DNA of 32,050 nucleotides. Source: Myxococcaceae bacterium (GTDB lineage Bacteria > Myxococcota > Myxococcia > Myxococcales > Myxococcaceae). The notes under the pieces are model-generated. The model searched no databases. It saw only the letters and a list, made by a program, of their open reading frames with translations, and was not told where the DNA came from. The stretch is from positions 1 to 32,050 of the forward strand of contig JALOQF010000103.1 in assembly GCA_025459425.1 (NCBI GenBank). Direction: 5' to 3'. This document shows, one piece after another, positions 1 through 32,050 of this stretch. Within the stretch, counting starts at the first letter, position 1. Each line of letters starts with the position of its first letter. Position numbers and translations under genes: made by a program.

Positions 1-139
1 CGGTGGACTCGTCGCCGAGGAACCAGTGCGTGCGAGCGTGCACGTCGGGCCACGCGGCGAGGGTTTCGGACAGGGCCTGGGCGTGCGCCGGCTCGAGCGT
101 TGGCGGCGGGGCGAACCGGCCCTTTTCGGAGCGCTTCAT
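1..139 (-). CDS. Partial protein, possibly luciferase-like (DUF5519-type) N-terminus, runs off left edge
   Basis: Reading leftward from an ATG at 139, 46 codons are open to the window edge, almost all ending in G or C. The peptide begins MKRSEKGRFAPPPTLEP and continues with a helix and the motif AAWPDVHARTHWFLGDEST. A short basic start, a Pro-rich patch and 'W-P-x-V-x-x-x-x-H-W' recall the small bacterial luciferase-domain (DUF5519-like) proteins, but the diagnostic later part lies outside the window, so the family is a guess. The rightward reading frame over the same bases gives an unnatural Arg/Cys/Ser-rich peptide, which supports leftward coding here. It diverges from the small gene that starts near 198. 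Confidence 0.5.
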   Translation of the reverse strand, partial: MKRSEKGRFAPPPTLEPAHAQALSETLAAWPDVHARTHWFLGDEST

Positions 140-197
140 GGCCAGAGGGATAGCGGCTGGGGCAGACGACTGCACGGCGGACCCGCCCGAGCGTCAG

Positions 198-410
198 GTG
201 AACCTCGCGTTGAGCGAAGAGCAGGTGCTGGCGATCGTGCAGCAGCTCATGTCGGAGCCGACTCGCCGACGACGACGGAACTCCGAATCGCTGCAGGCCT
301 ACGTGATCGAACGCCTGAGCCAGAACGACGCAGAGTGGGCGTCCTTCATGAGCGCTCGAGCCGATTGGCAGAAGGAACTCGAGAAATGGCTGAGGCCGCG
401 CGACGTGTAG
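198..410 (+). CDS. Small hypothetical protein, shares a C-terminal domain with the 26510-27019 gene
   Basis: I chose the GTG at 198 (70 residues, starting MNLALSEEQVLAIV) because the frame upstream overlaps the divergent gene at 1-139 and reads as shadow; an ATG at 138 is the alternative. The protein is helical: an amphipathic N-terminal helix, an Arg-rich turn (about residues 22-27), then LQAYVIERLSQNDAEW and a final charged helix. From the LQ onward it aligns without gaps to the C-terminus of the protein encoded at 26510-27019, with 12 of 33 residues identical including the D-x-E-W core and a later Trp. No known function is recognised. No convincing Shine-Dalgarno sequence precedes the start, so the start is uncertain. 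Confidence 0.5.
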   Translation: MNLALSEEQVLAIVQQLMSEPTRRRRRNSESLQAYVIERLSQNDAEWASFMSARADWQKELEKWLRPRDV

Positions 411-23411: not shown

Positions 23412-25184
23412 TCACGGCAACGTCGACCAGCTCCCGCTGCCGAGCGCCGGCACCCGCGCGATGAAGAGCGGCTTCACGCACTGCCCCGACACGCACGCCT
23501 CGTCGGCCGCGCACGAGCCCACCGTCGTGCACGTGCGCCCCGTCGGCGCCTGCGGCTTGAAGATGGCGGCTTCTCCCCAGGCGAGCGAGTCGAGCGTCGG
23601 GCACGAGAAGCCCGCGTGCCCCACCATCGCCGTGTTGGTGCCCGTCGCCGGAGCCTGGTGCAGCAGCGCGATGTTCTTCGCGCAGCGCAGACCTTCCTCG
23701 TAGACCCAGTAGGTGAGGTCGGCGCTGAGCTCGAGGGCGGGCCCGAACTGGAAGTTCTGCGCCGTCGTGAAGCAGCGGCAGTATTCGCTCGTGAGCACGC
23801 GCCCCACCGTCACGCCGTTCGTCTGAAACCACGTGCGCACGGCCGTCGTCTCGGCGTCGGCCGGCACCGTCGAGAGCTGCCGCGCCGTCGTGTTGCACGC
23901 GGGCGCGTCCGACGCACACGTCCTCCACCAGTTCGCCGCCGACGTGCCCACGAGCGCCTGCGCGCACGTCTGCCCGGCCGGGAGCGTCGCGGGGCACAGG
24001 TCGGTGCGGTCGCTGCACACCGACGCCGAGGCATGCCGCCAGAACACCGTATAGCCACCGCCGCGCAGCGCCTGCTTGAGCGACAGGCTGAGCGACGCCG
24101 TGGGGCCCGAAGGCTCACACGCGGCGCTGGAGCAACCCACCACCTGGTACGTCGCGCTCCGGCTGACGCCTCCGGCCGAGGGGAGCAGCTGGTCGACCCG
24201 CTCGCTCGCGCTCGACGCGAGGCCGTCGAACACGACGACTGGAGTCGAGGTGCTGGCGCCCGTCGTCACCGTGCGCGTGAGCCGGACCCGGGCCAGCGCC
24301 GGGCTCGAGCCGTTGGTCCATGCGAGCTGCACCCGCTGGCCGTCGGTCGAGAGCGTCGCGGCCAGGCCCAGCGGCGTCAGGCTCCCGGCCCCACCGTCGG
24401 GCTGGCCACCGTCCAGCACGCCACCGTCCGTCCCTCCGTCCGAAGCGCCGCCGTCGGTCGCCGGCTCGGGCACCGTGAAGGACACGACGGTCGGCGTGGC
24501 CCGGCAGCGCCCACACTCGTTGCACGAGAACGCCGCGTAGAAGAGGCGCTCGCCCGGCGTAAAGACGTCGAGGCTCTCGGTGAAGACGGTGGTGGTGCCG
24601 GTGCGGAGCGGGATGCCGTCGGTGGGCGTCGTGGGGGCGGCTCCGCTCTTTCGCACGAGCGCCATCTGGAAGAAGCCCGACGAGGCCGGAGGGTTCACCC
24701 ACGACAGCCCGACGACGCCGTCGTTGGACGAGACGGTGAGCGCGTCGATGGCCTGCGACGGCGCGCGGGTGGTGACGCCGGGACCCAGCTCGACGAGGGC
24801 CTGGTCGATGCTCCAGCGGCCCTGCGTGTCCTGCGACCAGAGGCGGTACGCGACGGCGCCGCACGTCGCTGGCGGGCTCGAGTCGACGAACTCGGTGGCG
24901 AGGCCCACGAAGACGACCGTGCCGCTCACGCCGATGCTGTCTCCGATGGCCGGAGTACCCGACGGCCGCGTCGCCGTGCCGCCGGGCAGAAAACGCGCGA
25001 CGAGCACGCGGGCGAGGTCTCCATCACCGGGGTTGTTCCAGGTGAGCTGCACCGCTCCGTCGGAACGCACCTCGGCGCGCTGCTGCGTGGGGGCGGGCGG
25101 CGGCGCGGTATCGACCGTCTTGGGCTCGGGGCCCGGGCACGCGACGAGCAGGGGCACGACGACGCAACACAGGGCGACTCGCAT
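23412..25184 (-). CDS. Lipoprotein: fibronectin-III-like domains fused to a histidine phosphatase domain
   Basis: This 590-residue protein starts at ATG 25184 with a lipoprotein signal ending in L-V-A-C (C16). Residues about 36-140, 145-237 and 268-368 look like FN3-type beta sandwiches ('V-x-L-x-W-x-N-P', 'Y-x-V'). A DGG-rich flexible linker lies at about 240-267. Residues about 372-545 match the histidine phosphatase superfamily: YTVFWRHASASVC (R383, H384 nucleophile), ARQLSTVPADAETTAVRTWF, GRVLTSEYCRCFTTA and MVGHAGF (second H523), then GEAAIFKP. The C-terminus has a Cys-rich tail (CTTVGSCAADEACVSGQCV). Envelope location is expected. FN3 plus phosphatase in one lipoprotein is unusual; its substrate is unknown. 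Confidence 0.88.
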   Translation of the reverse strand: MRVALCCVVVPLLVACPGPEPKTVDTAPPPAPTQQRAEVRSDGAVQLTWNNPGDGDLARVLVARFLPGGTATRPSGTPAIGDSIGVSGTVVFVGLATEFVDSSPPATCGAVAYRLWSQDTQGRWSIDQALVELGPGVTTRAPSQAIDALTVSSNDGVVGLSWVNPPASSGFFQMALVRKSGAAPTTPTDGIPLRTGTTTVFTESLDVFTPGERLFYAAFSCNECGRCRATPTVVSFTVPEPATDGGASDGGTDGGVLDGGQPDGGAGSLTPLGLAATLSTDGQRVQLAWTNGSSPALARVRLTRTVTTGASTSTPVVVFDGLASSASERVDQLLPSAGGVSRSATYQVVGCSSAACEPSGPTASLSLSLKQALRGGGYTVFWRHASASVCSDRTDLCPATLPAGQTCAQALVGTSAANWWRTCASDAPACNTTARQLSTVPADAETTAVRTWFQTNGVTVGRVLTSEYCRCFTTAQNFQFGPALELSADLTYWVYEEGLRCAKNIALLHQAPATGTNTAMVGHAGFSCPTLDSLAWGEAAIFKPQAPTGRTCTTVGSCAADEACVSGQCVKPLFIARVPALGSGSWSTLP

Positions 25185-25267
25185 GGCCGATTCCTATCGT
25201 CCACCCGCGGGCGCCGGCCCTCTTTTTCGCGCCTGTGGGTGCGGACGAGCGGGCTACGCTGCCACGC

Positions 25268-26497
25268 ATGCCCGTCGACGTCATCTTCATCGAGCCCTGC
25301 TTCCCCTCGAACCAGCGGGAGTTCGTCCGCGCGCTCCACGCCGTCGGGGCCCGCGTCATCGGCATCGGCGAGCGCCCGAAGGAATACCTCGACGATGGGC
25401 TGCGCCAGTGGCTCTCGCACTACGAGCAGGTGAGCAACGTCACCGACGAGGCGCAGCTCGAGCGCGCCGTGCGCTTCGTGCAGTCGAAGGTGAAGGTCGA
25501 CCGGCTCGAGGCGGTCGTCGAAGCGCACGTGATGGCCGCCGCGCGGGTGCGCGAGAAGTGCGGCATCCCCGGCACCAGCGTGCGCTCGACGTTCCGGTGC
25601 CGCGACAAGCCGGCCATGAAAGAGGCGCTGCGCCAGGCGGGCGTGCCGTGCGCGCAGTCCATCGGGTCGAACAGCCCTGACGACATCAAACACTTCGCCG
25701 CGCGCGTGGGCTTTCCGCTCATCGTGAAGCCTCGCGATGCCGCTGGAGCTTCTGGCACCGAGCGCGTCGACAATGGGCCCGAGCTCGACCGGGCGCTCGC
25801 CAGGTTCGGCGTGCCGCAAGGCCGCAGCGTCGCCGTCGAGGAGTTCATCGAGGGCCACGAAGCCTTCTACGACACGCTCACCATCAACGGCCGCGTCGTG
25901 CACGACTTCGTCACGCACTACTACCCGAACGTGCTCGAGGCGATGCGCAACCGGTGGATCAGCCCGCAGTTCATCGTCACCAACCGCATCGACGCGGCGC
26001 CGGCTTACGGTGAGGTGCGCGCGATGGGCCAGAAGGTCATCACCGCGCTCGGGCTCGAGACGACCGCCACGCACATGGAATGGTTCGTCGGGCCCAAAGG
26101 CCTCAAGTTCAGCGAAATCGGCTGCCGGCCCCCGGGCGTGCGCGCGTGGGACCTGTACGCGGCGGGCAACGACATCGACATCTACCGCGAGTGGGCGATG
26201 GTGGTGGTGCACGGCCGGCCGAGCCAGCGGCTGTCACGCCAGTACGCGGCGGGCATCATCGCGCTGCGCCCCACGCAAGACGGCCGCATCGTCGACTACG
26301 CGGGCGTCGACGAGGTGCACCGGCGCTTCGGCAAGTGGTTCATCGACGAGCACCTGCCGTCGCCGGGCACGCCCACCCAGCCCGTCGAGGCCGGCTTCAT
26401 GGCCAACGCGTGGATGCGGCTCAAGCACCCCGACTACGACACCCTGCGCGGCATGCTGAACCTCATCGGCCAGACGGTGAAGGTCATCGCGCGCTGA
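25268..26497 (+). CDS. ATP-grasp ligase (first of two in the cluster)
   Basis: This 409-residue protein starts at ATG 25268. Domain order is typical: a Rossmann-like N-domain (VDVIFIEPCFPSNQREFV, IGIGERP), then an ATP-grasp fold with CRDKPAMKEALRQAGVP (K114), FPLIVKPRDAAGASGTERV (K154 and the flexible loop), VAVEEFIEGHEAF (E191/E192) and metal-binding acids in HMEWF (E271) and KFSEIGCRPPGVR (E283). Such enzymes couple a carboxylate to an amine or thiol through an acylphosphate. This layout is closest to the carbamoyl-phosphate-synthase-like or amidoligase branch. An in-frame ATG at 25235 lies in the intergenic region and is not preferred. A possible -10 hexamer TACGCT ends 7 bases before the ATG, which would give a near-leaderless transcript. 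Confidence 0.9.
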   Translation: MPVDVIFIEPCFPSNQREFVRALHAVGARVIGIGERPKEYLDDGLRQWLSHYEQVSNVTDEAQLERAVRFVQSKVKVDRLEAVVEAHVMAAARVREKCGIPGTSVRSTFRCRDKPAMKEALRQAGVPCAQSIGSNSPDDIKHFAARVGFPLIVKPRDAAGASGTERVDNGPELDRALARFGVPQGRSVAVEEFIEGHEAFYDTLTINGRVVHDFVTHYYPNVLEAMRNRWISPQFIVTNRIDAAPAYGEVRAMGQKVITALGLETTATHMEWFVGPKGLKFSEIGCRPPGVRAWDLYAAGNDIDIYREWAMVVVHGRPSQRLSRQYAAGIIALRPTQDGRIVDYAGVDEVHRRFGKWFIDEHLPSPGTPTQPVEAGFMANAWMRLKHPDYDTLRGMLNLIGQTVKVIAR

Positions 26498-26509
26498 AGA
26501 ACAGCCTCA

Positions 26510-27019
26510 TCAAGACGAACCGGCCTCTCTCTTCTTGCGAATGAAGTCAGCCCATTTCGGGCTCGCGGTCAGCGCGCTCACCCACTCAGGGTCATCATCT
26601 GCGAGGCGCGTGACGATGTAACGCTGGAGCGCCCCTTTCTGACGATGGAGCCGACGATGGGGACTCGCACGCACGACTTCGATGAGTCGAAGCAGCGACT
26701 CTCGGTCGGCCAAAATGAGTTCCGCGTGGGCCTGCACGGTGAACTGAAACCGGGTCGAACCCGGAGACTTCACGAGGGCACCAAGGTCCTTCAAATCCAG
26801 GTCGATGTGGTTCTCGCTGGCAGGCGAGTCCAACATGCTGACGAGATGCTCGGCCCGGGCCTGCTCGATCTGCCCCGACTCGATTTCGTAGACAGACAAC
26901 GACAGATCCGGCTCTCCGGTGTCACGCCTCGAAAACGCAACGCGAAGAATCTCATCTGTCGTGGACGATGGCTCCCACAGGCTTCGGGGACGCCGGCCAA
27001 TTCTCAACCAGACGGTCAC
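26510..27019 (-). CDS. Hypothetical protein, third gene of the TIGR04255 cassette
   Basis: This 169-residue protein starts at GTG 27019, which overlaps the stop of the HEAT-like gene in a GTGA junction. No family is recognised. The N-terminal two thirds are strand-rich (ILRVAFSRRDTGEPDLSLSV, HIDLDLKDLG, RFQFTVQAHAELILADRESL). The C-terminal 40 residues, LQRYIVTRLADDDPEWVSAL and on to the end, align with the small protein at 198-410 (12 of 33 residues identical). The last codons are less GC-biased than in the flanking ATP-grasp genes. The stop lies 12 bp from the convergent ATP-grasp stop. Its function is probably tied to its two coupled partners. Confidence 0.7.
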   Translation of the reverse strand: MTVWLRIGRRPRSLWEPSSTTDEILRVAFSRRDTGEPDLSLSVYEIESGQIEQARAEHLVSMLDSPASENHIDLDLKDLGALVKSPGSTRFQFTVQAHAELILADRESLLRLIEVVRASPHRRLHRQKGALQRYIVTRLADDDPEWVSALTASPKWADFIRKKREAGSS

Positions 27020-27525
27020 TGCTCCAGAACCCGCTCCAACACTTCTGCCGCAGCCTCTCGAACACCGGGACTGAGATCGGTCTCGGCGACAGTCTCAACG
27101 ACAATCCGAAGCGATTCATCCGCGGAGATGAAACGCTCGAGTCCGTAAAGTGCCGACTCTCGAACGAACGGGCGCTCGTGCCGCAGGAGTCCGCGAAGCC
27201 ACCGAACGACGTGGAGGTGATGCGAGGTGCTCAACGCAAAAGCCTGGGCGGCCCGAGACAGGAGCACCGCGTCGTTCTGAATGACAGACGATTCGACTGC
27301 GCGGAGAAGTGCGCCCGTGTTGTCACGAGCCATCGAGTCGAACCAAAGCTCAGAGTGAATGGACACAGGAGCGTGTGGAAGGACTGGAACGGCACGCAGG
27401 CCGTCAACGAAACGACCGGCTTCGCTCGTAGAGGGAGTCTCACTGACGTCCCGGAACACGATGCTCCCCATCGCCGGGGGCGCAGCGCTGAGACGAACGT
27501 GGTCTTGGCGAAGGAGCGCAGTCAT
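27016..27525 (-). CDS. HEAT-repeat-like protein, second gene of the TIGR04255 cassette
   Basis: The ATG at 27525 (169 residues) overlaps the TIGR04255 stop in an ATGA junction, and the next gene overlaps this stop by 4 bp, so translation is coupled on both sides. The N-terminal 80 residues are unassigned. The C-terminal part is helical with HEAT-like pairs: ALLRAVESSVIQNDAVLLSR, HHLHVVRWLRGLLRHERPFV followed by RESALYGLERFI, and SPGVREAAAEVLERVLEQ. 'V-R-E-x-A-x-x-x-L' is the HEAT signature. Such repeats bind partners rather than catalyse. It may scaffold the other two cassette proteins. Confidence 0.75.
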   Translation of the reverse strand: MTALLRQDHVRLSAAPPAMGSIVFRDVSETPSTSEAGRFVDGLRAVPVLPHAPVSIHSELWFDSMARDNTGALLRAVESSVIQNDAVLLSRAAQAFALSTSHHLHVVRWLRGLLRHERPFVRESALYGLERFISADESLRIVVETVAETDLSPGVREAAAEVLERVLEQ

Positions 27526-28250
27526 CGGAACAGTTCCCTGGTTGGGTCCTTGATGGATTCTTCGAACATCGCCTTTTGCCTCTGGTGGAGCTTCTCCACA
27601 ACCTCGGGCCATGCAGTGGGGCTGGCCCCGGGTGGCATCTGTTCGGTGAGATTCAGGTCGTAGACGATGACGCGACGGCCATCGCCAGTGGAAGGTCCCG
27701 ACACGAGGGTGAGCAATGCGCGAACCTCGCCCTCGACGGTTTCGGTCGTCACCTGAAATGAGGAGATCGCCCTGGGCTGCGACGGGAGCTGGGGAGGCAA
27801 CGCATGAAAGTACTGTTCCAGGTCAGCGCCTTCCGGGACCAGAATCTGGTCGATGTACCGCACACCGACCTTGATGAGCTCTGTCGGGCGACACACGGCC
27901 TGGAATCGAATGGCCGCATCATCGATGAGAGGCCGAAACGAGGCCCAGCCCGGGTAAGGGGCCAAAACGTGAACCGAGAGGACGCCCTGCCCAAGGCCAA
28001 CGAGTCGGAGGCCAGAGGAGTCTGGAAGCAGCCACCTCGAGAATCGTTGGCTTGTGGTCGTCCTGAGGCCGGACTTCTCCCAGCTCGCCGCGACCTCATG
28101 CGTCTTCAGTTCACGACGGGGTCCTGAGTACTGCTCAGCGAAGGCATGGAGCAACCCTGGCTCTGCCGTCGACCACTCGACTCCACCGGCGAAGTGCAGC
28201 TCGACGAGTGCCTCGGCGATTGGTGGGTTCGGGTACGGAGGACCAAGCAT
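27522..28250 (-). CDS. TIGR04255 family protein
   Basis: I start at ATG 28250 (242 residues) because MLGPPYPNPPIAEALVELHF is the usual family beginning; an ATG at 28295 would add 15 residues. Further family features are VCRPTELIKVGVRYIDQILVP near residue 120 and the C-terminal LHQRQKAMFEESIKDPTRELF. TIGR04255 members are sporadically distributed across bacteria and have no established function; that patchiness suggests a mobile accessory role such as toxin-antitoxin or phage defence, which is inference. It is the first gene of a three-gene leftward operon with 4-bp overlaps, placed between cluster genes on the other strand, and its codons are less GC-biased than theirs. Confidence 0.88.
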   Translation of the reverse strand: MLGPPYPNPPIAEALVELHFAGGVEWSTAEPGLLHAFAEQYSGPRRELKTHEVAASWEKSGLRTTTSQRFSRWLLPDSSGLRLVGLGQGVLSVHVLAPYPGWASFRPLIDDAAIRFQAVCRPTELIKVGVRYIDQILVPEGADLEQYFHALPPQLPSQPRAISSFQVTTETVEGEVRALLTLVSGPSTGDGRRVIVYDLNLTEQMPPGASPTAWPEVVEKLHQRQKAMFEESIKDPTRELFR

Positions 28251-28403
28251 CGGGAACAAGATAGTCCTCGGCTCGACGATTGCCAGCGCATGCACCGATG
28301 CGACGCATCACTCATCGCTCGATGAGGGGTTTCCCTCGGCCCGTTTGGCCCACTGAACTTCGACCGTCCCGACCCGGACTCACGTAGAGTGTCGTGCCGC
28401 GCC
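28251..28403. promoter_or_regulatory. Divergent promoter region (cassette versus ATP-grasp cluster)
   Basis: This 153-bp gap must hold promoters for both the leftward cassette and the rightward operon. TAGAGT (28385-28390), 13 bases before the ATG at 28404, is a reasonable -10-like element; no matching -35 at good spacing was convincing. The sequence is AT-richer on the cassette side. Confidence 0.4.
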
Positions 28404-29345
28404 ATGTCCGTCGACGCCACGCCCACCCGCACCGCCGTGCTCCTCGGCGCCCAACGCTTCCAGCCGACGCTCGCCGCGGCGGTGAGGGAGACGGGCGTCA
28501 AGGGCCGCATCGCGCTCGTCACCGCCGGCTGGCAGGAGCGCGAGGACGAAGACGAAGAGCTCGTGCAGCACCTCGACGGCAACACCATCAACCTGATGCT
28601 CTACAAGCGCGGCGAGCAGCTCTTCCGCGAAGACCGTGAGTTCGCCCTCGCGCACAAGGAGCGGCAGAACCTGCTTCGTTCGCTCCAGGACGTGTACCGG
28701 CTGCGCCTCGAACGCGCCCTCGACGCCGAGGCGGTGGTGCGCTTGTCGAAGCAGCCCGAGTCGATTCGCCACGAGGTCGAGCAGGCGTGCATCGACGCCA
28801 TTCGTGACCTCGACGCCTGGCACCTGTACCAGTGCGCGAAGGTGCGGGCCGAGTTCAACGAGAAGTGGAAGCCGCTCCAGCGGCCGGCCATCGCGCGGCA
28901 CCGGGGCGACCTCATCGAGTCCCTGTCCGACTGCGGCGCCATCGCCATCGCTGGCGGGCACGTGGCGGTGCTGGTGAACCGACTGCTCTTGTTCGGCCTC
29001 GAGTCGCTCATCGGCGCGCGCACCGTCTTCGCCTGGTCGGCGGGCGCGATGGCGGTGAGCCAGCGGGTGGTGCTGTTCCACGACGACCCGCCGCAGGGCC
29101 AGGGCGCCAGCGAGGTGCTCGACGCGGGCCTGGGCCTGGTGCCGAACGTCGTCGTCTTCCCCGAGCCCGAGACGCGGCTCAAGCTCGACGACGGCGTGCA
29201 CGTGGGGCTCATCGCGCGAAGGTTCGCTCCATCACGCTGCATCGCGCTGCCGGCCCGCGCCTCGGTGGTGCTGCACGACGGCAAGGTGGTGCGCACCAGC
29301 GGCGCCGTCCACCTGAACCACGCCGGAGACTCGTTGCCCTCATGA
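28404..29345 (+). CDS. Peptidase S51/cyanophycinase-like (type 1 glutamine amidotransferase fold) protein
   Basis: This 313-residue protein starts at ATG 28404. The fold is the class I amidotransferase/peptidase S51 type: a strand GRIALVTAGW, a long helical insert (about 75-160), IAIAGGHVAVLVNRLL, and the nucleophile elbow FAWSAGAMAVS with S212 rather than Cys. The Ser form points to S51 relatives such as dipeptidase E and cyanophycinase, which cut Asp- or polymer-linked peptides. VVFPEPETRLKLDDG with HVGLIARRF may supply the His. The stop overlaps the next start by an ATGA. In this cluster it could trim or transfer a product of the ATP-grasp ligases. Confidence 0.82.
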   Translation: MSVDATPTRTAVLLGAQRFQPTLAAAVRETGVKGRIALVTAGWQEREDEDEELVQHLDGNTINLMLYKRGEQLFREDREFALAHKERQNLLRSLQDVYRLRLERALDAEAVVRLSKQPESIRHEVEQACIDAIRDLDAWHLYQCAKVRAEFNEKWKPLQRPAIARHRGDLIESLSDCGAIAIAGGHVAVLVNRLLLFGLESLIGARTVFAWSAGAMAVSQRVVLFHDDPPQGQGASEVLDAGLGLVPNVVVFPEPETRLKLDDGVHVGLIARRFAPSRCIALPARASVVLHDGKVVRTSGAVHLNHAGDSLPS

Positions 29346-30481
29346 GCACCGCCCGCATCATCGACGAGCTCATCAACGCCTGGGGCGACGCGCCGAAGCT
29401 GCGCGCCTTCCTCAACGCGCACAGCTTTCCCCTCGTGCAGGACTCGCACGTCACCTTCGTGTGGATTGGGCAGGCCGACGCCGTCAACGTGCGCCACTGG
29501 GTGTACGGGCTCGAGTCGTCCACCACGCTGACGCGCGCGCCGAACACCGACCTCTGGCACCTGACGCTCGAAATCCCCGGCAACTCGCGCGTCGAATACA
29601 AGTTCGAGATTCTGCGCGAGGGCCGCGCGGAGTGGATCGAAGACCCTCTCAACCCCAACCGCGCGAGAGACCCGTTCGGCGCCAACTCGGTGCTGCAGTC
29701 GGCGGGCTACGTCAGCCCCGACTGGACCCAGCCCGACGAGCTGGCGCGGCCAGGCCTGCTCGAGCGCATTCGGGTGCCGAGCCGCACCTACGGGCACCGC
29801 GTGGTGCAGGTGTACCTGCCGGCGCGGTACCGCAAGACGCGGCGCTACCCATTGCTTGTGGTGCACGACGGCAGCGACTTCCTCAACTACACGGGCATGA
29901 AGACGGTGCTCGACAACCTCATCCACCGCCTCGAGATTCCAGAGCTGGTGGTGGCCTTCACCGACTCGCCCGACCGCCTGCGCGAGTACGCGGCCGACGA
30001 GGGGCACGCGGGCTACGTCACCAACGACCTCTTGCCGTTCATGAACGCGAAGTTCCCGCTCATCGACGAGCCGCGCGCGCGGTGTCTGCTGGGCGCGAGC
30101 TTCGGCGCGGTGGCCTCGTTCTCGACGGCGGTGCGGCACCCGGGCGTGTGGGGCCGGCTGTTGCTCCAGTCGGGCAGCTTCGCCTTCACCGACATCGGCC
30201 GGCGCAACCGCCGCGGCCCGCTGTTCGACCGCATCGTCGAGTTCGTCAACGCCTACCGCGAGAAGCCCACCGCGATGAGCCAGCGCGTCTTCGTGACGTG
30301 CGGCGTGTACGAGTCGCTCATCTACGAGAACCGCTCGCTGGTGCCGCTCCTCGACGCCACCGGCATGCAGGTGAAGTTCGTCGAGGCGCGCGATGGGCAC
30401 AATTGGCAGAACTGGCGAGACCGTCTGCGTGAAGGTCTGTCGTGGTTGTTCCCCGGTCCCTTGATGTTCGTGTACGAATGA
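29342..30481 (+). CDS. Enterochelin-esterase-like alpha/beta hydrolase with N-terminal E-set domain
   Basis: The ATG at 29342 overlaps the upstream stop by 4 bp (379 residues). Residues about 35-115 form an Ig-like/E-set domain (VTFVWIGQADAVNV, WHLTLEIPGNSRVEYKFEIL), as in Fes and related esterases. The hydrolase part has VVQVYLPARYRKTRRYPLLV, VVHDGSDF, CLLGASFGAVASF with nucleophile S253, and EARDGHNWQNWRDRL with H353. The acid is not certain. Members of this family cleave siderophore esters or acyl-sugar/peptide esters. The gene lies inside the ATP-grasp operon, so the natural substrate may be an ester or amide made by the cluster. Confidence 0.88.
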   Translation: MSTARIIDELINAWGDAPKLRAFLNAHSFPLVQDSHVTFVWIGQADAVNVRHWVYGLESSTTLTRAPNTDLWHLTLEIPGNSRVEYKFEILREGRAEWIEDPLNPNRARDPFGANSVLQSAGYVSPDWTQPDELARPGLLERIRVPSRTYGHRVVQVYLPARYRKTRRYPLLVVHDGSDFLNYTGMKTVLDNLIHRLEIPELVVAFTDSPDRLREYAADEGHAGYVTNDLLPFMNAKFPLIDEPRARCLLGASFGAVASFSTAVRHPGVWGRLLLQSGSFAFTDIGRRNRRGPLFDRIVEFVNAYREKPTAMSQRVFVTCGVYESLIYENRSLVPLLDATGMQVKFVEARDGHNWQNWRDRLREGLSWLFPGPLMFVYE

Positions 30482-30491
30482 GGAGCGCTCC

Positions 30492-31730
30492 GTGGCTGTG
30501 GTGACCCGTCGTATTGGTCTGTCGCTCGGCGCAGACCTGTGCTGGCCGTTGTGCTTCGAGCACCTGGTGAAGCGGCTCGACCTGAGCGTGCCCGTCGGTG
30601 GAGACACCGTGCGCTTCGAGGTCGAGCGCGTGGCGATTCAGCCATTCAGCCTGCGCGAGCCCGTCGGCTACGACGTGGTGGTCGACCGTCTGACGCACTG
30701 GATGCACAGCCAGCGCGAGTGGATCAAGAAGGGCCTGTTGATGGACGGCTTGTATGTCTTCAACAACCCCTGGAGCGTGCAGGCGAACGAGAAGCACACC
30801 AGCTACGCGGCGATGATGAAGCTGGGCATGCCGATTCCCGAGACGTGGATGCTGCCCGCCAAGGCGTACTCGGAGGACCAGGTCGACGCGAAGGTGACGC
30901 TCAAGCGGTACGCGAAGCTGTTCGACCTGAAGACCATCGGCGAGAAGCTGGGCTTCCCGTTCTTCTTGAAGCCCTACGACGGCGGCGGCTGGCGCAACGT
31001 CACGCGGGTGAAGAACGTGAAGGAGGCGTGGACGGCCTACGACGAGTCCGGCAAGTCGGTGATGCACGCGCAGGCGTCGGTCGAGGGCTACGACGCCTTC
31101 GTGCGCACCATCGGGTTCGGGCCGCAGACGCGCATGGTGTCGTACGCGCCCGACGCGCCGCTGCACGACCGCTACACGCAGAAGGTCGACTTTCTGCCGA
31201 AGGCCGAGGCCGAGCACCTGCGCAAGGTGACGCTCACCATCAACGCGTTCTTCGGGTGGGACTTCAACTCGTGTGAGTCGTTGCGGCGAAACGGCGTGTG
31301 GCACCCCATCGACTTCGCCAACCCGTGCCCCGACTCGCAGGTGACGTCGCTGCACTTCCACTTCCCGTGGCTGGTGAAGGCGTACGTGAAGTGGACGCTG
31401 TTCTGCGCGGCGACGAAGCGGCCGTTCCGCAAGAACCTCGACTGGCAGCCGTTCTACGACGTGGCCGCGCTCGACCTGCCGTACGCCGAGAAGCTCGACC
31501 GCTACGCGAAGATTGCCGACGAGCGGTTCGAGACGGCGCGCTTCGAGGAGTTCTGCGCCACGCACCTCAAGCACCTCGACGCCGAGGCGTTCGCGTTCTT
31601 CGCGACGAGCGAAGCGAAGGAGGCGGTGCGGCTCAAAGTGGCGGCGCTGTTCCCCGCGCACGAGGTCGAGAAGTTCACCGAGCTGTTCTGGCAGCGCATT
31701 CAGGCGTGGCGCGCGGCTGGCTGCCCGTGA
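30492..31730 (+). CDS. ATP-grasp ligase (second of two in the cluster)
   Basis: GTG 30492 follows AGGAG at the end of the esterase gene (10-bp gap) and gives 412 residues. The N-terminal part reads IGLSLGADLCWPLCFEHLVK, then YDVVVDRLTHWM, then NNPWSVQANEKHTSYAAMMKL, where a Lys-Thr pair before 'G-M-P-I-P-E-T' is a RimK-like lead-in. GFPFFLKPYDGGGWRNVTRV carries the ATP-loop Lys (K160), and FNSCESLRRNGVWHPIDFANPCPDS supplies metal-binding E262, D274 and N277. The C-terminal 100 residues are helical. The enzyme should form an amide or peptide bond; the acceptor is unknown. It is a different branch from the ATP-grasp at 25268, which suggests two steps in one pathway. Confidence 0.9.
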   Translation: MAVVTRRIGLSLGADLCWPLCFEHLVKRLDLSVPVGGDTVRFEVERVAIQPFSLREPVGYDVVVDRLTHWMHSQREWIKKGLLMDGLYVFNNPWSVQANEKHTSYAAMMKLGMPIPETWMLPAKAYSEDQVDAKVTLKRYAKLFDLKTIGEKLGFPFFLKPYDGGGWRNVTRVKNVKEAWTAYDESGKSVMHAQASVEGYDAFVRTIGFGPQTRMVSYAPDAPLHDRYTQKVDFLPKAEAEHLRKVTLTINAFFGWDFNSCESLRRNGVWHPIDFANPCPDSQVTSLHFHFPWLVKAYVKWTLFCAATKRPFRKNLDWQPFYDVAALDLPYAEKLDRYAKIADERFETARFEEFCATHLKHLDAEAFAFFATSEAKEAVRLKVAALFPAHEVEKFTELFWQRIQAWRAAGCP

Positions 31731-31732
31731 GG

Positions 31733-31752
31733 TGATGGTGGAATTCCCATCA
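31733..31752. promoter_or_regulatory. Candidate operator upstream of VapB-like gene
   Basis: TGATGG (31733-31738) and CCATCA (31747-31752) form 6-bp inverted arms around GGAATTCC (31740-31747), itself a palindrome offset by one base. It sits at the antitoxin start codon, the usual place for an autoregulatory site. Confidence 0.35.
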
Positions 31753-32006
31753 TGTCGATCAACCTCGACAATCCCGAGGTCGAAGCCCTGCTGAAGGAAT
31801 TGGCGGCGAAGACTCGAGAGTCGCTCACCGAGGCCGCTGGCAAGGCGTTCCAGGCCCGACTCGACGCCCTCTTGGCCAGTCAGAAGCCCGGCCGAGAGCG
31901 CTTCCTCCCCGAGGTGCTGGAGATGAGCGAGCGAGGCGAGGAGCTCCCCGATCTCGACCCGCGGCCCACGAAGGAGCTGCTCGATGACCTCTGGGGTGAC
32001 GCATGA
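31752..32006 (+). CDS. VapB-type antitoxin
   Basis: This 84-residue protein starts at ATG 31752, with GGTGG about 8-13 bases upstream. It begins MSINLDNPEVEALLKELAAK, then TRESLTEAAGKAFQARLDAL, then ends PDLDPRPTKELLDDLWGD, the pattern of VapB antitoxins with the PSK-type/Rv0623-like DNA-binding strand and a C-terminal acidic toxin-binding tail ('E-x-x-x-L-P-D-L-D-P-R'). The stop overlaps the next start by an ATGA. It begins 21 bp after the ATP-grasp stop. Confidence 0.85.
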   Translation: MSINLDNPEVEALLKELAAKTRESLTEAAGKAFQARLDALLASQKPGRERFLPEVLEMSERGEELPDLDPRPTKELLDDLWGDA

Positions 32007-32050
32007 ACGACTGCGTCGTCGACGCATCGGTCGTACTCGCGGTCGTTTCC
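32003..32050 (+). CDS. PIN-domain toxin (VapC-like), truncated by the right edge
   Basis: The ATG at 32003 overlaps the antitoxin stop. Sixteen residues are visible: MNDCVVDASVVLAVVS. 'V-V-D-A-S-V-V-L-A' is the PIN first strand with its catalytic Asp (D7). Gene order and overlap support a VapBC pair. The rest lies outside the window, so intactness cannot be judged. Confidence 0.8.
   Translation, partial: MNDCVVDASVVLAVVS

Follow-up and report, generated by a model that had tools for sequence, protein, structure and literature searches.

A conserved cluster of ATP-grasp ligases, an S51-fold protein and esterases that recurs beside GlgA in several bacterial phyla

Introduction

What might be made by two different ATP-grasp ligases that are encoded close to an S51-like protein and an esterase, and do such genes belong together at all? 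The question is raised by a stretch of 32,050 nucleotides from a Myxococcaceae bacterium (the window). A first-pass annotation made from the letters alone had pointed to four genes at 25268-31730 as a candidate undescribed peptide or amide pathway. All four open reading frames are present over that span (Table 1), and C, D and E are coupled in the way that had been described, with a 4 bp overlap between C and D and a spacing of 10 bp between D and E. For gene C, the ATG at 28404 is a likelier start than the GTG at 28389; counted from this ATG the proposed active serine is correctly numbered S212, whereas it becomes S217 when counted from the GTG.

Table 1. Position and description of the cluster genes and of the cassette inserted among them
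Feature	Position	Strand	Description
Gene A	25268..26497	+	409-aa ATP-grasp ligase, L-amino-acid ligase/CPS branch (RizA/BacD-like)
Inserted cassette, outside the system	26510..28295	-	169-aa protein, HEAT-repeat protein, TIGR04255 protein
Gene C	28389..29345	+	S51/class-I-amidotransferase-fold protein; helical hairpin insert
Gene D	29342..30481	+	Fes/CE1-type esterase; Enterochelin_N/CBM48-like (starch-binding-like) N-terminal domain
Gene E	30492..31730	+	RimK/LysX/Ddl-like ATP-grasp; extra C-terminal helical domain

Results and discussion

Insertion between A and C

Although the four genes had been said to lie together, this is true in the window of C, D and E only, since A is separated from C by three minus-strand genes. 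DNA homology between the window and its closest relative, L032, extends over 25249-26497, stops, and resumes over 28396-31730, and in L032 the cassette is absent, with A and C spaced 43 bp apart. The break in homology and the missing block in L032 together indicate that the 1.9 kb between A and C is an insertion and that A belongs with C-D-E. The TIGR04255 cassette was ruled out as a member of the system on the same ground. A defence system was also considered and rejected, PADLOC having given no match for A, C, D, E or the inserted cassette.

A few observations concern the flanks of the window. A stretch at its extreme start (99-386, plus strand) is 28 % identical to the 169-aa protein of the cassette, and a putative lipoprotein of 590 aa with a PRK06193-like region (E 3e-10) adjoins A at 23412-25184 on the minus strand. 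Beyond E, positions 31752-32050 (plus strand) hold an antitoxin ORF with a weak likeness to RelB and, after it, the beginning of a further gene, an arrangement resembling a toxin-antitoxin pair; the RelB-like ORF directly after E occupies the place that is taken in relatives by a second, small esterase, Est2, immediately after E.

Gene families of the cluster

The assignment of A as a CPS-like ligase is borne out by ATP-grasp and CPSase_L_D2 matches above the Pfam cut-offs. Its best solved relative is the L-amino acid ligase 4WD3 (E=2e-13), with BacD and BL00235 among the top matches. L-amino acid ligases are thus the nearest proteins of known structure, and A is a putative amino-acid ligase. 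Against the BacD equivalog it scored 33 bits, the cut-off being 850. Orthologues of A in A4 are 58-77 % identical, and the clade of A comprises 25 rows with support of 100/100. Two more ATP-grasp proteins, A' and A2/A'', form separate and mostly well supported clades, so that three ATP-grasp clades are recognised, each with members from several phyla; A' has a match to the LAL_C2 domain. Downstream of the cluster at one locus (L068:11941-16862) lies a run of four additional ATP-grasp genes of the A type (A2, A', A2, A').

The E protein of the window has no Pfam match, and its sequence gives weak matches to RimK and LysX, with 20.3 bits for TIGR00768 against a cut-off of 143.4, well outside the RimK family proper; for 21 of 32 relatives the matches are confined to weak ones with D-Ala-D-Ala ligases. 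Both C and E were modelled with AlphaFold, and the model of E (pLDDT 86) matches RimK, ArgX/LysX and D-Ala-D-Ala ligases, in agreement with the RimK-like ATP-grasp originally proposed. K160, E262 and N277 are invariant in 80/80 sequences, and E can be regarded as an ATP-grasp protein on account of its fold together with this lysine and the metal-binding Glu/Asn. An extra helical domain of about 110 aa follows at the C-terminus (about residues 300-408). A distant homologue of E (38 % identity; L151:8634-9965 in genome G554, from the planctomycete search) adjoins an ATPase of a sugar-type ABC transporter and is accompanied by none of the other cluster genes, and may have an outgroup function.

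Gene C had been described as an S51-like peptidase, and this description holds for the fold and less well for the activity. The Pfam S51 match of C alone is weak (E 0.047), and all 31 homologues searched match this family at E<=0.1, the best at 6e-9. In Foldseek searches with the model (mean pLDDT 90), all 12 matches at E<=0.001, and a 13th, were S51 structures, including pseudo-CphB, cyanophycinase and dipeptidase E, and a long helical hairpin (residues 83-160) is inserted within the fold. The serine of the nucleophile elbow is found in 61/68 sequences and is replaced by Ala, Cys or Gly in the other seven; the position taken as the S51 catalytic histidine, which was matched by eye on the alignment, is a histidine in 19/68 only, while H231 is invariant in the same 68 sequences. 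C therefore belongs to S51 by its fold and departs from the family in its catalytic serine and triad histidine, and with the presumed histidine unconserved and the serine sometimes lost it may not be a hydrolase. We refer to it as an S51-fold protein, for which a peptidase role is doubtful as judged from the residues.

For D, the call of an enterochelin-esterase-like protein is upheld by the Pfam Esterase match (1e-18) together with Enterochelin_N. The D profile matches Fes 2B20 with E=3e-25, and the residues S253, D351 and H353 are invariant in 73/73 sequences, but D scores 103 bits against the Fes equivalog cut-off of 222 and is placed outside Fes itself. A role in siderophore handling was ruled out, as no siderophore genes are present among the conserved neighbours of the cluster. 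At the N-terminus, Enterochelin_N was recognised in 26/26 members, with weak CBM20 matches in 9/26 and weak CBM48 matches in 6/26, and the profile aligned with a glucoamylase starch-binding domain at E=0.003; the putative starch-binding assignment of this domain, made from sequence profiles, is weak. A second and distant homologue of Est2 (about 30 %) is present elsewhere in the window's own genome (L132:8928-9632, genome G000, contig C158).

Conservation across phyla

On scanning 84,980 species genomes, 212 relatives of E were found, and the best 80 of the 212 were kept with their flanks. These 80 loci (60-94 % identity) come from Myxococcota, Acidobacteriota, Planctomycetota, Gamma- and Alphaproteobacteria and one Gemmatimonadota MAG, and the genomes that carry the cluster are mostly MAGs. 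The order A-C-D-E recurs with near-zero spacing in Acidobacteriota, Planctomycetota and Pseudomonadota. Spacings below 50 bp were seen for 66/67 C-D pairs, 57/62 E-Est2 pairs, 27/30 Est2-GCS pairs and 23/28 A-C pairs, and fewer than 60 bp separate the two genes in 232 of 263 adjacent pairs of the core. The possibility that the four genes are not neighbours in related genomes, on which the first-pass proposal could have failed, was addressed by this comparison, and adjacency was found across several phyla.

Amongst 195 Myxococcota genomes, A occurs in 26, C in 26 and E in 25, with all three in 24, and they are jointly absent from nearly all the others; C and E lie within 3 kb of each other in 21 of the 24 carriers. 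The hypergeometric probability of such co-occurrence is about 1e-27 to 1e-30 when kinship is ignored. Carriers of A belong to 14 genera of Myxococcota, and A, C and E are all lacking from many large and complete genomes belonging to the same family. The spread is patchy in other phyla as well, with 9/247 genomes in Acidobacteriota, 38/246 in Planctomycetota (some of these representing a distant E subfamily) and 2/398 in Pseudomonadota. In the alphaproteobacterial and Gemmatimonadota loci D-E-Est2 is retained, and both C and GlgA are missing; at the alphaproteobacterial locus L083 a YbdK carboxylate-amine ligase adjoins D-E-Est2 (TIGR02050, 322 bits against a cut-off of 176), and at one of the loci of this kind a CBS protein lies next door. 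That the cluster is a conserved system is almost certain, and the notion that ordinary, unrelated housekeeping genes happen to be neighbours, for which nothing speaks beyond the single window, is refuted by the shared order, the tight spacing across several phyla and the near-perfect co-occurrence.

Linkage to glycogen genes and the wider cluster

The unit is larger than the set first proposed as undescribed (two ligases with an S51-fold protein and one esterase); that set is itself conserved, its genes being neighbours across several phyla, and it is linked to GlgA. In many relatives GlgA lies directly upstream of A, with a median gap of 4 bp (less than 50 bp in 22/24), and this tight spacing is conserved in Myxococcota, Gammaproteobacteria and other groups. 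The GlgA of the cluster is a genuine member of TIGR02095 (538 bits against a cut-off of 328). GlgA was found in 36 of the neighbourhoods of the best 80 of the 212 E relatives, in several phyla. Over half of the flanks lack it; these flanks reach at most 8 kb to each side, and many are cut short by contig ends. In genomes G014, G210 and G650 it is far from the cluster. Each of 18 genomes examined has a GlgA above the cut-off, and in five of them (G195, G199, G202, G499 and G601) the linked copy is the sole GlgA and is therefore presumably the housekeeping enzyme there. A second match is present in 7/8 of the Myxococcota genomes examined for GlgA.

Other members of the glycogen pathway are seen less widely, GlgC near the cluster in several phyla and GlgB or GlgX in a few loci. 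Second loci, in Acidobacteriota and other groups, repeatedly show a GlgA-A pair divergent from an A'-A2/A'' pair. In Myxococcota and also at L158, a locus from the planctomycete search, Est2 is followed by a GCS2-like ligase that has two CBS domains, and subsets of loci include an aspartoacylase-like protein and an N-formylglutamate-amidohydrolase-like protein. At L158 and at L163, from the same search, A, C, D, E, Est2, GlgA, GlgC, A' and A2/A'' all lie within about 13 kb. The genome of the window holds several of these partners on contigs apart from the window in an assembly of 651 contigs, namely Est2 with the GCS2-CBS gene on C400, A' beside GlgA on C150, and A2 on C571. No conserved transporter family, carrier protein or precursor gene was found among the recurring neighbour families, consistent with the earlier remark that no precursor peptide gene is present.

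Proposed function and alternatives

The best explanation of the whole, in which our confidence is evenly balanced, is that of a probably cytosolic operon that makes and unmakes an amide-linked compound containing amino acids and works together with glycogen synthesis. That the pathway forms amides is likely, and the genomic link to glycogen, which is observed directly, moderately favours a functional tie. Up to three L-amino-acid-ligase-like ATP-grasps (A, A' and A2), together with E and the GCS2/YbdK-type CBS ligase, would join carboxylates to amines in steps by way of acyl-phosphates, and C, D, Est2 and, in some lineages, the aspartoacylase-like and N-formylglutamate-amidohydrolase-like enzymes would hydrolyse the product or its intermediates. 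In such a scheme D and Est2 may cleave esters (or thioesters), with C and the deacylases cleaving or binding the amide product, and the starch-binding-like N-terminal domain of D could place this enzyme on glucan.

Coupling of GlgA to A, considered together with this domain of D, suggests that the product is built on glycogen, primed by it or stored alongside it; the likeliest candidate is a conjugate of an amino acid or small peptide, made on or primed by an alpha-glucan or stored together with one. The narrower case of a covalent conjugate to glucan is rather unlikely, and it would be speculative to propose that amino acids or short peptides, attached by ATP-grasp ligases encoded with GlgA, serve in several phyla as a decoration or primer of glycogen and are taken off again by the esterases and the S51-fold protein. 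By eye, the N-termini have no evident signal sequence, and this, along with the small gaps between genes and the lack of a conserved transporter, carrier or precursor, suggests a product that probably stays inside the cell and is not made by the ribosome. The loci that keep D-E-Est2 without C and GlgA indicate that the core reaction may be able to proceed without glycogen.

These same loci fit the strongest rival, in which a free soluble small peptide or pseudo-peptide (an osmolyte, a thiol or a dipeptide reserve) is made and GlgA is a neighbour through shared control of reserves or stress protectants. Such a free product is a possibility to be taken seriously, if short of probable: A has its nearest relatives among the L-amino acid ligases, the core is repeatedly accompanied by GCS2/YbdK ligases (at L083 by the TIGR02050 member), and deacylases like FGase and AstE act, by family, on N-acyl amino acids. 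However, the GlgA-A spacing is conserved across groups and is tighter than shared control needs, and D has a glucan-binding-like domain; both features speak against a free product.

RimK adds amino acids to ribosomal protein S6, and the nearest folds of E (RimK and ArgX/LysX) act on protein tails, which would agree with a tagging system where a protein, possibly GlgA, receives amino acids from E and loses them again through C. We consider protein tagging improbable, as it leaves the two esterases and the deacylases without a role, the three further ligases of the A type look like those that act on free amino acids, no conserved acceptor tail was identified, and E, at 20 bits, falls far under the 143 bits required for the RimK family. 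The pairing of ATP-grasps with hydrolases is also a familiar theme of graspetide clusters, where ATP-grasps cyclise a ribosomal precursor. Such a RiPP is very improbable here: the gaps within the operon are too small for a precursor gene in 232 of the 263 core pairs, the neighbours include no conserved transporter family, the A-type ligases resemble those of free amino acids, the linkage to GlgA would go unexplained, and S51, cyanophycinase and glycogen are unmentioned in a 2022 survey of graspetides.

Comparison with known systems

The usual view of bacterial glycogen is that of a polymer of glucose alone, produced by a small number of well-studied enzymes. The presence of glgA a few bases upstream of ligases, sometimes as the sole GlgA of the genome, points to a missing amino-acid step or a partner product, and if this is true, decoration or priming of glycogen may provide a joint store of carbon and nitrogen or a covalent control of glycogen. 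In the literature searched, no description of decoration or priming of glycogen with amino acids or peptides was found, nor any of ATP-grasp proteins with glycogen or glgA, S51, cyanophycinase or RimK that corresponds to this cluster; the search did not cover the 2009 amidoligase survey discussed below. The likeness to the ADP-glucose pathway (GlgC-GlgA-GlgB-GlgX) lies in the bona fide GlgA, in GlgC in several phyla and in GlgX or GlgB in a few loci. A review from 2024 on the alpha-glucan enzymes of prokaryotes (PMC11046441) mentions, in its available sections, no ligases or esterases of this type.

Closest in its logic is the cyanophycin system, consisting of CphA and the S51 cyanophycinase CphB, where ATP-grasp ligases are likewise paired with an S51-fold protein; the model of C matches cyanophycinase and pseudo-CphB, and a comparable logic of intracellular storage is possible. 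CphA is a protein of about 870 aa with an ATP-grasp plus Mur-ligase-like architecture. In contrast, A and E are each about 410 aa long and of the single ATP-grasp kind, their CphA matches are partial and far below the cut-off, C has a helical insertion, lacks the conserved histidine and has lost the serine in 7/68 sequences, and the present cluster adds GlgA and esterases.

Amongst individual families, A and its paralogues fall in the same branch as the L-amino acid ligases RizA, BL00235 and BacD, but they are below the BacD equivalog cut-off and comprise three clades that are clustered together beside GlgA. E shares its fold, with a weak sequence match, with RimK, LysX and ArgX, although it is well below the family cut-offs and carries the additional C-terminal helical domain. 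The two-domain plan of D, with its GxSxG motif and histidine, is that of Fes and of the CBM48-CE1 feruloyl esterases; unlike Fes, D stays below the equivalog cut-off, has no siderophore neighbours and is clustered with GlgA and ligases.

Clusters of ATP-grasp amidoligases were reportedly surveyed by Iyer et al. in 2009, and the theme shared with those clusters is that of ATP-grasp ligases adjoining peptidases. We rate the system described here as a variant of the amidoligase-cluster theme, possibly listed already in that survey, with an unexpected link to glycogen.
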